A stretch of 64,000 nt of DNA from Bacteroidota bacterium (GCA_018267365.1 JAFDYQ010000015.1:1-64000), one strand, 5' to 3'. Counted from the first letter of the stretch, positions 55,216 through 61,060 are shown. Notes: a model not told the origin generated them from the letters alone. Program-made: numbers and translations.

Positions 55216-55287
55216 TTATCGCGTGCGCCAGGCTTTGGCATAGCTGATAGCAGCAGCTTTCGATGCTACATATGTTATATAGTCAAA
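55216..55287 (-). pseudogene. Severed 3' end of the gene at 59603-61060
   Basis: Read on the minus strand, 55287-55216 encodes 23 residues beginning FDYITYV and ending AKAWRTR, then TAA. If the transposon and one copy of its 8-bp target duplication are removed, these codons join in frame to the last host codons (…YYNY) of the gene at 59603-61060. This is therefore the original C-terminus of that protein, cut off by the insertion. It has no start codon of its own and is not expressed as part of the host protein now. Confidence 0.85.
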
Positions 55288-55293
55288 ATAGTT
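55286..55293. repeat. Left target-site duplication of the transposon
   Basis: AAATAGTT directly precedes the first GG of the left inverted repeat and is identical to 59637-59644. An 8-bp duplication is what IS1595-family elements make. Confidence 0.88.
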
Positions 55294-55317
55294 GGTGTGT
55301 ATCCCTTCTGGACAGTT
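55294..55317 (+). repeat. Left terminal inverted repeat
   Basis: The repeat is 24 bp, GGTGTGTATCCC… at the outer end, perfectly complementary to 59613-59636. Two further matching bases outside it (TT/AA) belong to the target duplication, not to the repeat. Confidence 0.9.
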
Positions 55318-55352
55318 ATAGGAAATAAAAATGTTTGTTGCAGATAATTGTG

Positions 55353-55360
55353 TAGGTTTG
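55353..55360 (+). promoter_or_regulatory. -7 element of the first passenger gene
   Basis: TAGGTTTG fits TAnnTTTG and lies 18 nt before ATG 55379. A TTTG at 55334-55337 is spaced by 15 nt, shorter than usual. It supports ATG 55379 rather than ATG 55331 as the start. Confidence 0.45.
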
Positions 55361-55378
55361 GGGGAAAACCATATACAA

Positions 55379-55585
55379 ATGAATACTGCTACCATTACCA
55401 TATACAATGTAAACGGATCTGATAGGACAATAGAATACACATCGAAAGAACTAAAGGATAATATAATCCCAGATAATGGTATGCCATTTAGCATGTCAAT
55501 AGATATAACTGATTCAAAAGGCGCAACCATCACAATAAGTTTTGGAACGGATGGTAATTGTACGATTTATAAGGATGCGCAATAA
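55379..55585 (+). CDS. Small passenger protein of the transposon
   Basis: From ATG 55379 the frame gives 68 residues, MNTATITIYNVNGSDRTIEY onwards, rich in beta-prone residues (SMSIDITDSKGATITISFG) and without signal or membrane segment. An ATG at 55331 would add 16 residues but lies upstream of the -7 element. It ends 3 bp before a bidirectional hairpin terminator. No family is recognised. Confidence 0.5.
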   Translation: MNTATITIYNVNGSDRTIEYTSKELKDNIIPDNGMPFSMSIDITDSKGATITISFGTDGNCTIYKDAQ

Positions 55586-55587
55586 AA

Positions 55588-55605
55588 AAGCCCCTCTCGG
55601 GGCTT
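55588..55605. terminator. Bidirectional terminator between convergent passenger genes
   Basis: Arms AAGCCCC and GGGGCTT flank TCTC. On the minus strand the stem is followed by a T-run (the AAAAAA on the plus strand), so it best serves the minus-strand gene ending at 55610; it also lies just past the plus-strand stop at 55585. Confidence 0.75.
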
Positions 55606-55609
55606 AGTA

Positions 55610-56149
55610 TCATTTATCTGATTCTGATTTCTTTTTCCTATTAGATGCCTTAGATGTTTCATCGTACACCTCATGCCCGTAATTGTGTTTTTCGTTAAGC
55701 TCCCAAAGCATGTCATATAGTTTTATCGGGTCTTGAGATTCAGTTACCCATTGTAGTATGACCTCTAACATTTCTTTCATCACTGGTTGATATGTCATTC
55801 TCCCATCGCTACCCCTTATACCCTTATTGTCTGACTTCTTTTTACCTAAGTTAAGAAAGATGTTTTTCTCGTCGTATATCAATTCACGTCCCGCCTTGTT
55901 TTCTTTGCCTGACGGTAGGTATTTACGCAATATGCGCCCAATACCCTTATAGTATATATCATACTTTTCCTGTGGGTTTTCAAAGTCTTTAGCAACAAGA
56001 GATTTAATCTCGTCAAATTGCTGTAGCTCCCCCGATATAATGTCTACGCCCAGTTTCAAACCCTTATTCTCTCTGGATTTTTGGAGCATTTCTAATCTCT
56101 CAAGTTCTTCGGCTTGAAGGTTAGGATTTGATGTCTTGATGTTACTCAT
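55610..56149 (-). CDS. Passenger protein encoded with the ImmA-like gene
   Basis: The 179-residue protein is hydrophilic, with many Lys and Glu, and contains LQAEELERLEMLQKSRENKGLKLGVDIISGELQQFDEIKSLVAKDFE near the start and LIYDEKNIFLNLGKKKS later. No domain is recognised. Its start overlaps the end of the XRE/ImmA gene by 8 bp on the same strand, so the two are translationally coupled and probably function together. It is AT-rich like the whole element. Confidence 0.65.
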   Translation of the reverse strand: MSNIKTSNPNLQAEELERLEMLQKSRENKGLKLGVDIISGELQQFDEIKSLVAKDFENPQEKYDIYYKGIGRILRKYLPSGKENKAGRELIYDEKNIFLNLGKKKSDNKGIRGSDGRMTYQPVMKEMLEVILQWVTESQDPIKLYDMLWELNEKHNYGHEVYDETSKASNRKKKSESDK

Positions 56150-57353
56150 CGGCAGTTGTGTTTAATTCAAAAATTTGTTTAATGTCGTTAGCTATCTGAG
56201 GGAGCATTTCACCTTCTTTCCATTTAATGATGCCTATGTTTTTAGTTGCTCTGCTGTAATCGGGGAAATACTCCCGATACAAACCATACATATTCTTTCC
56301 GTATAGCTTGTCTTGATAGTGCATATAAGCCCAATAAAGTATAGAAACATGCACCTCATTTTGATCGGCGAACTTCTTTATTACATAAGGGTTGTTGATG
56401 TGAATTTTGATGAAGTTAAACCTGTCAACATCACAAAAGTAGTTCCATGAAAATTCGATAGCCTTATCTTCCACTAAGAATAGATCAGGCTCACCCGATA
56501 TATGAAAACCGTTGTTTTCTAGATGTTCAAAATCAAATAACACGTGCTCTAATTCATGAAGCAGGGTTATCCATAGATTAGGATAGCTTTTCCCGTAGTC
56601 GGTCAATACAATACACGGCTTGCCTTTTATCACAAATGATGCACCAACTGTACTTGTATTTGTGAGTTGAGATTGTACTATCACGGTCACGCCTACATGA
56701 AATAAGGCGCGACACACCAACTCAAGTCCCATATCTACATCCTGTGAGTATGGACGGATTTTTGAAACAATATCCTTTAGTGCATCCCTATCATACTCAT
56801 GAGGGTTGCTAATGTCGTTGAATAGCTTAATCGCAGACGCGACCCAAAGGTCTTTCATTTTATCAGAAAACGACCTTTTCGCTTTTCTATATAGCGGAGT
56901 ATTGAGATTTGTTTGATATTCATATATACTCTCGTAGCCGAAAAAGTTTAGTATAGTTTGAGTGAGTATGTCTACGTCACTAGTATTAGGAAGAAACCCA
57001 ATCTTGATTAGCTTTTTTAAGTCAAAGTTTTTAGCAAGGAAAGTGGCTTTACGAGCCTTGTCTATTGAACTTATATACTGAGCATCCAAGTTTTTTAATA
57101 CAGCAGCTATGGCATCACTTTCGCTTATTTCAAGAAACTGGGCTAACTTTAAGACATTGATTAAAGAGGGCTGTTTAGCTGTACCATTTATCATGTCCAC
57201 GAAAGTGTCATACTCTATGCTCAGCAAATTCCTAACCTTAGTTTCGGTTAGATCATACTCCTTCATTTTAGCTTCCAATAGGGGTCTAAGGTCTAAGTCC
57301 TTATTTCCCCCCAAGGCTTTTTGAAGTATATCGTCTATGCTGTTATCTGACAT
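56142..57353 (-). CDS. XRE/ImmA-IrrE-type metallopeptidase
   Basis: The 403-residue protein has an N-terminal HTH-like region (about 27-80: LLEAKMKEYDLTETKVRNLLSIEYDTFVDMINGTAKQPSLINVLKLAQFL) and a zinc-peptidase domain with His266-Glu-Leu-Glu-His270 in TLLHELEHVLFDF, followed by a distal acidic region AIEFSWNYF. This is the ImmA/IrrE (COG2856) layout, in which the peptidase cleaves a repressor or senses stress. It is divergent from the transposase gene and likely controls its own region through sites in 57354-57479. It is the main passenger of the transposon. Confidence 0.82.
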   Translation of the reverse strand: MSDNSIDDILQKALGGNKDLDLRPLLEAKMKEYDLTETKVRNLLSIEYDTFVDMINGTAKQPSLINVLKLAQFLEISESDAIAAVLKNLDAQYISSIDKARKATFLAKNFDLKKLIKIGFLPNTSDVDILTQTILNFFGYESIYEYQTNLNTPLYRKAKRSFSDKMKDLWVASAIKLFNDISNPHEYDRDALKDIVSKIRPYSQDVDMGLELVCRALFHVGVTVIVQSQLTNTSTVGASFVIKGKPCIVLTDYGKSYPNLWITLLHELEHVLFDFEHLENNGFHISGEPDLFLVEDKAIEFSWNYFCDVDRFNFIKIHINNPYVIKKFADQNEVHVSILYWAYMHYQDKLYGKNMYGLYREYFPDYSRATKNIGIIKWKEGEMLPQIANDIKQIFELNTTADE

Positions 57354-57356
57354 TTA

Positions 57357-57365
57357 GTAGGAATT
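57357..57365 (-). promoter_or_regulatory. Operator half-site downstream of the ImmA-gene promoter
   Basis: GTAGGAATT recurs here and at 57410-57418, 53 bp apart (about five helical turns). This copy falls between the -7 element and the ATG of the metallopeptidase gene, where a bound regulator would block transcription. Confidence 0.45.
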
Positions 57366-57372
57366 TACACCA

Positions 57373-57405
57373 CAAATATAAGGATATTGCTTGCATATTT
57401 GCAAA
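57373..57405 (-). promoter_or_regulatory. Promoter of the XRE/ImmA gene
   Basis: On the minus strand TTTG (57405-57402) and TATATTTG (57380-57373) are 21 bases apart, a full consensus match. It drives the metallopeptidase gene, with ATG 57353 only some 13 nt beyond the expected start of transcription. Confidence 0.7.
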
Positions 57406-57409
57406 TAAA

Positions 57410-57423
57410 GTAGGAATTCCTAC
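57410..57423. promoter_or_regulatory. Palindromic operator between divergent passenger promoters
   Basis: GTAGGAATTCCTAC is a perfect 14-bp palindrome placed between the -33 boxes of the ImmA-gene promoter (57402-57405) and of the transposase promoter (57433-57436). It is a likely binding site for the XRE-type N-terminal domain, able to affect both directions. Confidence 0.6.
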
Positions 57424-57432
57424 TGATTTTAT

Positions 57433-57462
57433 TTTGAGATTTCGATTTTGTCCTTATCTTTG
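57433..57462 (+). promoter_or_regulatory. Transposase promoter
   Basis: TTTG at 57433-57436 and TATCTTTG at 57455-57462 are spaced by 18 bases, a consensus match. The transposase ATG is at 57480, giving a leader of about 12 nt. Confidence 0.7.
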
Positions 57463-57479
57463 TACTACAATTCAGCCCA

Positions 57480-58403
57480 ATGACCAAGTACACTATAAAA
57501 GACTTCCGCGCTCAATATCCTAGTGACACCGTATGTTTGGATAAGATATTTCAACTCAGGTATGGCAAGCTAACTCATTGCCCTGAGTGCGCCGAAGAAA
57601 CGACCTTTAAACGTATATCTACCCGCAGGTCATATCAGTGCCGTAAGTGCTATACTCAATTTTACCCGACCGCTGGCACAGTTTTCGAGAAAACCCGCAC
57701 TCCGCTTTCTGACTGGTTCTTTATCATCTATATGTTTACCACTACAAGGAACGGCGTTAGCGCAAAGGAAATCGAAAGGGCTTTAGGTGTTACCTACAAA
57801 TGTGCTTTCCGCATGGGTCACAAGATCAGGGAACTGATTAGCGGAATTGACCCTGAAATGCTGAAAGGCTTTGTAGAATTTGACGAGGCATATTCAGGTG
57901 GGATAATGAAGAATAAGAGCAATGCTGAACGTAAAGAGGCAAGAGAATTAGCAGAAGGGCAGAAACAACGCATAGGACGCAACTCAGATGGCAAGACACC
58001 TATCTTTGCAATGGTTGAGCGTATGGGTCGTGTAAGGGCTTATGTGATGCCTAAAATACGCAAAGAGGCTGTCTACAAGCTTATCAAAGATAACGTAGAT
58101 CGCACAGCTATAGTGAGCACAGATGAAAGCAGGTTATATGATAATTTGAACAAACAATTAGGCTTTGAGCATGGACAGGTCAATCACTCAGCCAGTGAAT
58201 ACAAAAAGGGCATATTCTGCACCAATACTGTTGAGGGCTTTTTCTCTCAGGTAAAGCGTACTATCAAGGGAACGCACATATCAGTATCAGAAAAGTATCT
58301 ACAATCCTACGTCAATGAATGCGCATTTAGGTATAATAATCGTGGTACTGGCGGTGCGATGTTTGGCATCGTGCTAGATCAGATTAAGCACGTAGGCGAA
58401 TAA
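57480..58403 (+). CDS. IS1595-family transposase
   Basis: The 307-residue protein has an N-terminal zinc ribbon (Cys34, Cys37, Cys54, Cys57) and an RNase H-like DDE domain: Asp135 in FVEFDEAYSGG, Asp215 in IVSTDESRLYD, and the HSASEYKKGIFCTNTVEGFFSQVKRTIKGTH block with Glu252. These are the marks of IS1595 (ISXO2-like) transposases. All catalytic residues are present and the ends are intact, so it is probably active. It would act on the inverted repeats at 55294 and 59636. Confidence 0.93.
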   Translation: MTKYTIKDFRAQYPSDTVCLDKIFQLRYGKLTHCPECAEETTFKRISTRRSYQCRKCYTQFYPTAGTVFEKTRTPLSDWFFIIYMFTTTRNGVSAKEIERALGVTYKCAFRMGHKIRELISGIDPEMLKGFVEFDEAYSGGIMKNKSNAERKEARELAEGQKQRIGRNSDGKTPIFAMVERMGRVRAYVMPKIRKEAVYKLIKDNVDRTAIVSTDESRLYDNLNKQLGFEHGQVNHSASEYKKGIFCTNTVEGFFSQVKRTIKGTHISVSEKYLQSYVNECAFRYNNRGTGGAMFGIVLDQIKHVGE

Positions 58404-58574
58404 ACATATTGATCTCTTTTCTATTCATTACAAAGTAATACAACCTTTTCCGTGTATAAGGAAAAGAAATATTCCACATCTTTTTTTTGGTTTTAACATC
58501 TATCCCCCTATATTTGGTACAGAATTGGTTTTAGTAGTAGTGGGGAAAATAGAAAATTTAATTATTTTCGCGCC

Positions 58575-58619
58575 CCGATTTTTGAGGTTTTTTATCAGAA
58601 AACCCGAAACTAAAATCGG
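58575..58619. repeat. Nested hairpin upstream of passenger genes
   Basis: Outer arms CCGATTTT (58575-58582) and AAAATCGG (58612-58619) enclose an inner stem GGTTTT (58586-58591) with AAAACC (58599-58604). The structure lies 20 bp before ATG 58640, inside the 236-bp gap after the transposase gene. It may be a regulatory RNA leader, an element-internal site for the transposase, or a terminator without a strong U-run. Confidence 0.45.
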
Positions 58620-58639
58620 CTCTCAGTCGTTAATATATC

Positions 58640-58915
58640 ATGAGTAAGCGTGATAGAAATAAGGACGCAAAACTAGGAATTATGGAAAAGATAGCATTAA
58701 CCCTGTACGCTCACTTAGAGGAGATGGGGCTTGCTATGGCTGGGTCATATCGCGCTACAAGTGATATTTTAATAAAGGACTTTCTCATCGAATTTTACGA
58801 TATTGATATTCCACGTCCTCATCATGATAGGGAGAACTTAAAAAAGGACAGAGGATTGGTTTCGTCTGAACTCAAAAAAGCAGTTGACGATAAGAAAATG
58901 GAATTGTCAGAATAA
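58640..58915 (+). CDS. Small passenger protein
   Basis: The 91-residue protein begins MSKRDRNKDAKLGIMEKIAL and is strongly charged, with a helical pattern and no membrane segment. It shares one base of stop/start (TAATGG) with the gene that follows. No family is recognised. Composition matches the transposon. Confidence 0.6.
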   Translation: MSKRDRNKDAKLGIMEKIALTLYAHLEEMGLAMAGSYRATSDILIKDFLIEFYDIDIPRPHHDRENLKKDRGLVSSELKKAVDDKKMELSE

Positions 58916-59358
58916 TGGCAAAACATAATCGTCATATCTCAGCCGCTAAGCAGGGGCAATTAGCTAGATTAGAACAATCAGAAGTTTTTGATGACAACCT
59001 GTTACCAGATGCGGCAGAAATTGAAAAACTCCACTCTATTGATCCTGACATTCTAACTTGGTTAAAATCCCGAGCAGAGAAGGAGCAAGATTTTAGACAC
59101 AAAGGGTATACAGATCGGGTAAAACTAGTCGATGAACATAATTGTAGGGAACATAATACAGTAAGATATGGGCTAACTATATACTTTGTCTTAGTGTTTA
59201 TGGCAGGTCTTGCTTCTTTCTATTTGCTAATGGCTGGCAAAAATCTTCAAGGGTCTTTATTTGGTGGTGCTGCTGCTATTTTGGCTTTAGCTGTGCTAAT
59301 AAGGAAGCCACCTAAAGACCCACTCGCTAATAACAAGCAAGGTCAAGGGCAGATATAA
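58915..59358 (+). CDS. Passenger membrane protein, DUF2335-like
   Basis: The 147-residue protein has an N-terminal hydrophilic part with LPDAAEIEKLHSIDPDILTWLKSRAEKEQDFRHKGY and two membrane helices (about 83-105 and 110-128). The order ending in HRHK-like residues, then two helices, resembles DUF2335 proteins, which are frequent in prophages and mobile elements. It is coupled to the upstream small gene. A membrane role in stability or exclusion is possible but unproven. Confidence 0.65.
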   Translation: MAKHNRHISAAKQGQLARLEQSEVFDDNLLPDAAEIEKLHSIDPDILTWLKSRAEKEQDFRHKGYTDRVKLVDEHNCREHNTVRYGLTIYFVLVFMAGLASFYLLMAGKNLQGSLFGGAAAILALAVLIRKPPKDPLANNKQGQGQI

Positions 59359-59359
59359 G

Positions 59360-59563
59360 CTATTTATTCCTGTCAGCCTTTTTTACATACTTTACAGGCG
59401 GTACTAAAGCCTGTAGCACTTTCTCCATATCAGCTTTAGCATTAGGGTTTCTATCCTTGTCCTCTATGGACGCATCAAATGAATCCTGACGGGCTTTCTT
59501 ACTCTTATTCTCAGCCTTAGTGGCTACCCTCTTTTTGTCCCGCGCGTATTCCTTTTTCTTCAT
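59360..59563 (-). CDS. Small charged passenger protein
   Basis: The 67-residue protein (MKKKEYARDKKRVATKAENK then ASIEDKDRNPNAKADME…) is very rich in Lys and Asp/Glu, without hydrophobic segments. Its start lies 50 bp inside the right inverted repeat. A near-consensus promoter (TTG, 20 nt, TAGTTTCG) reads inward on the minus strand just before it. It converges with the DUF2335-like gene. Coding status is probable, function unknown. Confidence 0.5.
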   Translation of the reverse strand: MKKKEYARDKKRVATKAENKSKKARQDSFDASIEDKDRNPNAKADMEKVLQALVPPVKYVKKADRNK

Positions 59564-59602
59564 TTCGCGAAACTACAATCAATAACCCATATCTTCAACT
59601 GC

Positions 59603-61060
59603 TCATTTTAACAACTGTCCAGAAGGGATACACACCAAATAGTTATAATATGTTGTATCTGTTTTATCCAGCGCGCGATCCAGTTTCACTCCGAGCTTTT
59701 CCCAGTCTGATTTTTGCGGTTGCTTTACGGCAAAGTGGCTGACGCTGTTCAGCAGCTCCAATGTGCTTTCTGAGGCCATCTCATTATGCTGTTTTAGCTT
59801 GCGCTTGGCAGATTTCACGAGGCTGTCTATGATAGAGTAATTCTTTAGCTCATAGTGGCAGAGGACCTGCATGACTGCCGCCATCACATCTGGCGCTGCG
59901 GCAGTGTCTGTGCGGCGGTAGCGCTGCACACCATCCAGCATAGAGGAGGCCGCACTATACTGCCCTGAGCCAAAAAGTGCATATGCGCACAAGTACTCCA
60001 TATTGATGCGGTGATGTATCGGTATATTGTCTTTATGCTCTTTGAGCCCGTTTTTTACCGGTTCCAGCAGTTCTGCTGCCTGCTCAAATTCCCCTCGTGC
60101 TATCAGGAAGTTCAGCTCCGCCTGATAGGTGATACGGAATATGTTTATCTCCAGGTTCAGTAATTTCCGGAATGCGGGATTCTCTTTTAATCCCCGCATT
60201 TTGGAGAGCGTTTGCTGAAAGGAGCCTGTCTCAGACAGGTTGAAGCAATCTATGAGGTAGTTATTTAGCGCGGAGAAGTAGCGCTGGGGGTACAGACTGA
60301 TCAGAGTGCTATCGGCCTCTATCATAGCGATGAAAGCTGTATTGATCCGAAATGCCTTTACAGCATCGCGATGCATGAAGTGATATAGTGCCTCGGTTTG
60401 CATTTTATCCATCTGTGCTTTGCGCGTCAGGCTTTTTTTGCCTGACTGTATGGTAGCTTTTTTCAATAAAGACTTGACCCTACCGGCGTTTGCCTCACTT
60501 TTGCCGCCGGCCTGTAGTTGTATCTTTTGTGCCGCGTTATAAGTATAGCGCCATAGTGACTCTAGCCAAATCTGATCTGTAATGCCGGCAGTGTTCTGAT
60601 GATACATACCTATATCCTCCATATCAGTATCGCGAAACTGCTCCCGTGCAGCGATAGCAGCCCCCAGCTGAAGCGCCTGTAGCATTACCTCATGTTGTTC
60701 ATACTGCTCGGCACTCTGCCTGATTTGGTTTTGTTTTACTTTTGCCTGCTGTGTCAGTCCCTTCTGCAGTAGTATCTTGGTAGCGAAAATCTCCTGCTGC
60801 AGTTTTTGCGGCAGGTCCGTCTCTGTGTTATATTGTATCAGCGCCTGGAGCAATTGCTTGTAGAGTATGGTTTTTTGTACCGCATAGTGGTTTCGGCCCA
60901 GGCCGGTAGCACCGATAGCAGCGGGTTCGTCATAAGTATTTTGCCTTTGGAGAGTCTCATAGAGGGTCAGTGAAACACTGCCACCTTTGAAGTGACGACG
61001 CAGAAAGAGGTTAAAGTAGCGTTTCTCAGAGCCATTCAGACTTTTAATCAAATCGAACAA
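59603..61060 (-). CDS. Helical-repeat (TPR-like) protein with a transposon-derived C-terminus
   Basis: The 485-residue protein (TTG start at 61060; no ATG lies nearby) consists of helical pairs such as FLIARGEFEQAAELLEPVKNGL and YALFGSGQYSAASSMLDGV, suggesting TPR-like repeats, and has no signal peptide. The last 11 residues, LVCIPSGQLLK, are read from the right inverted repeat of the transposon; the original tail of 23 residues is now at 55216-55287. Loss of the tail may or may not inactivate it. It diverges from the T9SS propeller gene. Confidence 0.72.
   Translation of the reverse strand: MFDLIKSLNGSEKRYFNLFLRRHFKGGSVSLTLYETLQRQNTYDEPAAIGATGLGRNHYAVQKTILYKQLLQALIQYNTETDLPQKLQQEIFATKILLQKGLTQQAKVKQNQIRQSAEQYEQHEVMLQALQLGAAIAAREQFRDTDMEDIGMYHQNTAGITDQIWLESLWRYTYNAAQKIQLQAGGKSEANAGRVKSLLKKATIQSGKKSLTRKAQMDKMQTEALYHFMHRDAVKAFRINTAFIAMIEADSTLISLYPQRYFSALNNYLIDCFNLSETGSFQQTLSKMRGLKENPAFRKLLNLEINIFRITYQAELNFLIARGEFEQAAELLEPVKNGLKEHKDNIPIHHRINMEYLCAYALFGSGQYSAASSMLDGVQRYRRTDTAAAPDVMAAVMQVLCHYELKNYSIIDSLVKSAKRKLKQHNEMASESTLELLNSVSHFAVKQPQKSDWEKLGVKLDRALDKTDTTYYNYLVCIPSGQLLK
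59613..59636 (-). repeat. Right terminal inverted repeat
   Basis: It is the 24-bp perfect complement of 55294-55317. It overlaps the last codons and stop of the interrupted gene, whose reading frame runs into the element and ends at 59603-59605. Confidence 0.9.
59637..59644. repeat. Right target-site duplication of the transposon
   Basis: AAATAGTT follows the outer end of the right inverted repeat and is identical to 55286-55293. Confidence 0.88.

Follow-up and report, generated by a model that had tools for sequence, protein, structure and literature searches.

An IS1595-family transporter element of a Bacteroidota bacterium with a candidate repressor–protease operon among its passengers

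Transporter insertion sequences and repressor–protease pairs

The carrier habit of the IS1595 family is already known from the work of Siguier, Gagnevin and Chandler (2009), to which PMC3129680 and PMC11891212 refer, and ISNha5 is cited as a transporter insertion sequence (tIS) carrying a transcription regulator. Other mobile elements are governed by pairs of a repressor and an M78 protease: ImmR/ImmA pairs control ICEBs1 and TnSmu1 (PMC10233336). In these two elements, as in the CapH/CapP pair located before CBASS, the protease removes the repressor on DNA damage (PMC10233336, PMC13373217). Component B of the PD-Lambda-2 system, which combines an XRE-type helix-turn-helix (HTH) with a C-terminal M78-type peptidase, is toxic alone and is rescued by its upstream partner (PMC9519451). 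More generally, HTH-M78 fusions have been predicted to be toxin–antitoxin-like (PMC2701414).

The stretch of DNA analyzed here, referred to as the window, comprises 64,000 nucleotides from a Bacteroidota bacterium and includes an IS1595-family element at positions 55294-59636 (4343 bp). Overall, this locus is probably best explained as a transporter IS1595 element with a repressor–protease switch operon as its main passenger. The transposon part of this reading is close to certain, and the function of the cargo is what we infer.

The element, its insertion site and its relatives

The element begins with a 24-bp left terminal inverted repeat, GGTGTGTATCCCTTCTGGACAGTT (55294..55317, plus strand), and ends with its reverse complement (59613..59636, minus strand); the two match at 24/24 positions and start with GG. 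An 8-bp duplication, AAATAGTT, read directly at 55286..55293 and again at 59637..59644, flanks both ends. Such GG-starting ends and 8-bp duplications are features of IS1595 family members, and the chance expectation for a perfect 24-bp inverted repeat with an 8-bp direct repeat at such range is about 4e-11 in 64 kb. Between the ends, a 307-aa transposase (57480..58403, plus strand) contains a zinc ribbon and a DDE domain, and exceeds the cut-offs of PF12762 (DDE_Tnp_IS1595; 1.4e-37, 129.5 bits, cut-off 27), PF12760 (zinc ribbon; 1.5e-8, 34.9 bits, cut-off 25.4) and NCBIfam NF033547 (1.7e-59, 201 bits, cut-off 75). In an alignment with relatives, D135, D215, E252 and K259 fall on conserved positions, and they also line up with the signature of IS1595 type published for ISApl4 (PMC12561309). 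The G+C content of the element is 38.7%, vs 48% for the window, and it contains seven ORFs that are 60 aa or longer. A search against Rfam matched nothing. The initial annotation, which had described a precisely delimited IS1595 transposon with perfect GG-starting repeats, a duplication on both sides, an intact transposase and a seven-gene content, is thus borne out by the ends, the duplication, the family models and the conserved catalytic residues. The outcome that it had named as contrary, i.e., the whole segment in relatives without the repeats, was not seen. Since passengers lie between its ends, the element is of a known kind, and its sequence makes it almost certainly a complete transporter IS of the IS1595 family.

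The insertion is precise and is located in the 3′ end of a BT2802-like host gene (59603..61060, minus strand; NF058569 2.3e-28, under the curated cut-off of this model). When the element and one duplication are removed, this minus-strand gene grows to 497 aa, with the end ...YYNYFDYITYVASKAAAISYAKAWRTR. Two same-genus orthologues, 66% and about 70% identical, read across the exact junction (YFEYRVYVSAQARRIPYEVAWRS in genome G006 and YFDYRTYVAARAWSTSYAEAWQK in genome G005), which documents the empty site at the protein level, as the initial annotation had advised checking. It also indicates that the uninterrupted gene is ancestral and that the element inserted at its 3′ end, where approximately the last two dozen host residues gave way to some twelve encoded by the end of the transposon. 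A tRNA target was ruled out, as none lies nearby.

The element is present as a single copy in the 76-contig genome, where its ends match only themselves; the look-up of other copies with the same ends, also proposed in the initial annotation, therefore found none. In another genome of the genus (G002, contig C205; L028 38-526), a 489-bp unit without transposase, containing one 122-aa ORF, has near-identical ends (GGTGTGTATGCCTTCAAGACAGTT) and its own 8-bp duplication (AATTTTAT). This unit is a non-autonomous derivative that shares the end type of the window element, and it provides independent evidence for the mobility of such ends in the genus. Used as a degenerate pattern, the 24-bp end had no match in viral contigs. 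The genome contains five IS1595 transposases in 4.6 Mb; for two further copies, on contigs C24 and C12 (the latter near the contig end), ends were not found. A further IS1595-type element of 2468 bp (L036 5561-8028) has the duplication ATATCTTA and ends that start with AATGACTATCC, not GG.

IS1595 transposases were also surveyed in 398 genomes of the order, and their loci were examined in a sample biased toward the transposases most like that of the window. Delimited elements, defined by an 8-bp duplication and GG ends at least 19/24 identical, numbered 26 with the window element included; their median length was 3.4 kb, the shortest being 1739 bp and the longest 6606 bp. All 26 contained passengers, and none was a bare IS. 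Their cargo includes PIN and DUF433, PemK-like, GmrSD_N/HNH, P63C, Bro-N, Fic and DUF1828 proteins, and the PADLOC models matched were PD-Lambda-2_B, SoFic, BstA and candidate PDC proteins, names that are annotations and not tests. The passengers of several of these elements thus appear to be toxin–antitoxin or defence-like genes, and the sampled IS1595 elements of this order seem to be passenger carriers as a rule, moving genes of these types.

Several recurrent features were observed in this collection. Small XRE proteins occur in seven elements (L143, L146, L148, L149, L153, L154, L166), in six of which the gene directly adjoins that of the transposase. A coiled-coil protein of approximately 150-190 aa recurs in L136, L140, L141, L146, L154 and L155; its C-terminal part looks winged-helix-like by eye, and it is perhaps a transposition accessory factor. 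Near the transposase, a 55-74-aa helix-turn-helix-like ORF (...YIYKLIKEGK...IDGVQFID...) is found in L140, L146, L149, L154 and L167. The elements L148 and L163, from different genomes, share a two-gene cargo of 256-284 aa and a PIN-like 177-183 aa. A 6606-bp element with perfect ends and the duplication AAAAATTC (L018 594-7199, on a contig shared with L027), from a metagenome-assembled genome of the same family, contains four unknown ORFs in a run, among others, for which PHROGs gave nothing convincing.

The HTH-M78/partner operon

The main passengers of the window element form a two-gene operon. The first gene (56142..57353, minus strand) encodes a 403-aa protein with an N-terminal XRE-type HTH, a middle domain and an M78 metalloprotease, and the second (55610..56149, minus strand), which overlaps the end of the first by 8 bp, encodes a 179-aa partner predicted to be all-helical. 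The Pfam matches of the HTH and M78 domains are weak and under cut-off; the HExxH motif (H266, E267, H270) and E295 are invariant among relatives. In an AlphaFold model of the HTH-M78 protein (pLDDT 71.8), XRE repressor domains match the N-terminus, and the nearest structure is that of CapP, with moderate scores (Foldseek E 2.5e-3, VIA Z 7.7), followed among proteases by IrrE/PprI (Z 6.3), both Z values being under the guide value of 8 and such scores possibly reflecting a common arrangement. The XRE/ImmA-type peptidase initially annotated here is retained, with a protease that is ImmA/IrrE/CapP-like. The partner matches no Pfam, NCBIfam or PADLOC family, and its model from four sequences (pLDDT 54.8) is too low in confidence for a fold search.

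The coupling of the two genes, likewise proposed at the outset, is found elsewhere: a partner homologue usually lies directly 3′ of the HTH-M78 gene in 19 further Bacteroidota genome loci, in plasmids and in viral contigs. In the plasmid locus L020, the gene after HTH-M78 encodes a P63C-domain protein instead of a partner homologue, and a tblastn search of plasmids with the partner found no match. No IS1595 transposase was present in the fetched flanks of the 19 genome loci outside this genome; the operon is thus conserved without IS1595, as befits tIS passengers unrelated to transposition. It is rare: in this order, 8 of 398 genomes have it. The search for a published account of such cargo, which covered open-access papers, found none.

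The only other HTH-M78/partner pair of the genome, on contig C55, is also contained in a delimited IS1595 element, of 3025 bp, which is flanked by the duplication ATAAGGAA and whose 24-bp ends match at 20/24 positions. The transposases of the two elements are only 32% identical, and the two HTH-M78 copies fall in separate supported clades of a 28-row tree, which argues for double capture rather than duplication and rules out a shared ancestral transposon. The operon adjoins the transposase in both elements; by our own estimate, based on five transposases in 4.6 Mb, a second copy would fall within 3 kb of an IS1595 transposase by chance in about 0.7% of cases. Sequence comparison thus indicates that the operon has been captured twice, independently, by two divergent IS1595 elements, which makes its function directly testable.

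The remaining passengers are small. A 91-aa ORF (58640..58915, plus strand) ends at the start of the gene for a 147-aa protein (58915..59358, plus strand) and is coupled to it; the latter has two hydrophobic (membrane) stretches and matches phrog_3996, annotated as a membrane protein (PHROGs 1.8e-8). The initial annotation had called it a DUF2335-like membrane protein, of which the membrane part holds; the DUF2335 assignment had been made by eye, and Pfam gave no match. An 84-aa ORF (55331..55585, plus strand), whose status as a gene is uncertain, converges on the partner gene, with a bidirectional terminator-like hairpin between the two (55588..55605), and a lysine-rich 67-aa ORF (59360..59563, minus strand) lies at the other end. 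None of the 91-, 84- and 67-aa ORFs had a convincing family match in Pfam, NCBIfam, PADLOC or PHROGs; homologues or families support the transposase, the HTH-M78 protein, the partner and the 147-aa protein.

Control, alternatives and comparison with known systems

Promoters of Bacteroidota have a -7 box with the consensus TAnnTTTG. In the region that separates the HTH-M78 gene from the divergently oriented transposase gene, TATCTTTG (57455..57462, plus strand) fits this consensus and is a putative -7 box for the transposase, and its mirror TATATTTG (57373-57380, minus strand) is a putative one for the HTH-M78 gene. A perfect palindrome between these promoters, AGTAGGAATTCCTACT (57409..57424), is a putative operator; its 8-bp arm was reached by 1 of 100 shuffles, and a partial repeat, AGTAGGAATT (57356..57365), just before the HTH-M78 start may share its role. 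Upstream of members of the HTH-M78 family, the motif AGGTRA-N0-3-TYACCT occurs in 8 of 28 regions, vs 0.09 expected from its density, a count that is not fully independent because three of the eight loci are near-identical. The palindrome of the window is related to this motif but is not its strict form. Longer hairpins upstream of some homologues may be terminators of the preceding genes.

These palindromes suggest that the HTH-M78 protein represses its own expression. By binding the palindrome that lies in the divergent promoter, the HTH domain would repress the operon and, in the window element, might do the same to the transposase; once DNA damage, phage attack or a similar signal activated the M78 protease, repression would end and the partner would be produced or set free. 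Either persistence of the element or protection of the host could be the benefit. A repressor–protease switch of this kind is, by a modest margin over even chances, the role that we assign to the cargo, and a toxin–antitoxin or defence system fits no better. Repression of the transposase from 57409-57424 could follow from the divergent geometry. In C55, the transposase gene is located upstream of the operon and has the same orientation; such control is therefore not common to both elements. The fuller proposal, that DNA damage or phage attack would free both transposase and partner, is distinctly unlikely.

The switch is favored over the reading of the pair as a toxin–antitoxin-like abortive infection module related to PD-Lambda-2 and kept as an addiction or anti-phage module, which we regard as doubtful but the foremost rival. 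The HTH-M78 protein has the architecture of PD-Lambda-2 B (PMC9519451) and matches PADLOC PD-Lambda-2_B (PDLC03982) at 5.8e-15 (3.7e-21 for the better of the two IS1595-borne copies); the toxicity of that component, the toxin–antitoxin prediction for HTH-M78 fusions and the 8-bp gene overlap point the same way, as do the PIN/DUF433, PemK-like, SoFic, BstA-like and GmrSD-like genes in other IS1595 elements of the order. However, the similarity is limited to residues 99-283 of 403. PD-Lambda-2 has a HigB-like component A upstream, whereas none of the seven ORFs encodes one and HTH-M78 has the divergently oriented transposase gene as its upstream neighbor; neither the partner nor the other cargo proteins match component C in PADLOC, and gene order and partner differ, the partner being downstream and without a match to any toxin or antitoxin family. 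Full membership in PD-Lambda-2 is therefore rejected. The maintenance or defence cargo of the initial annotation, whose transposon part stands, is plausible only: it is supported by the PD-Lambda-2_B match and the nearest fold, CapP/IrrE, and weakened by the absence of the other components.

We consider it rather unlikely that IS1595 elements took the pair from prophages as an immunity switch of phage or ICE type, i.e., repressor and antirepressor, with no benefit to the host. Homologous pairs do occur on the IMG/VR contigs L092, L093 and L096, the second gene of L020 encodes a P63C-domain protein, P63C and Bro-N genes are found among IS1595 cargo, and ImmR/ImmA provides a precedent in ICEBs1 and TnSmu1, but most homologues were found in bacterial genomes and the HTH-M78 protein had no match among 50,697 phage records. 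It is unlikely that the passengers are host genes trapped by accident between the ends and do nothing for the element: the very varied cargo of the order and two terminal small ORFs without relatives would fit, but an operon this rare was taken twice in one genome, each time beside a transposase, against the chance estimate given above.

The locus thus provides an IS1595 transposon that is delimited in full and whose empty site is documented, and defines a conserved two-gene operon of repressor–protease type. Like ISNha5-type tIS, it has an IS1595 transposase, GG inverted repeats, an 8-bp duplication and passengers between its ends; in contrast to them, its cargo is the HTH-M78/partner operon and a membrane protein. 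This cargo resembles CapH/CapP, ImmR/ImmA and DdrO/IrrE in combining a repressor HTH with an M78 protease and in its association with mobile or defence loci (PMC13373217, PMC10233336). CapH/CapP and ImmR/ImmA consist of separate repressor and protease genes, whereas the window encodes one fused 403-aa protein and a second gene; their M78 active-site residues are present in it as H266, E267, H270 and E295. To our knowledge, ImmR/ImmA-type control has so far been known from ICEs and defence operons; if the fuller proposal, with release of the transposase, is true, this element would place such stress-sensing control on a small DDE insertion sequence of the IS1595 family.
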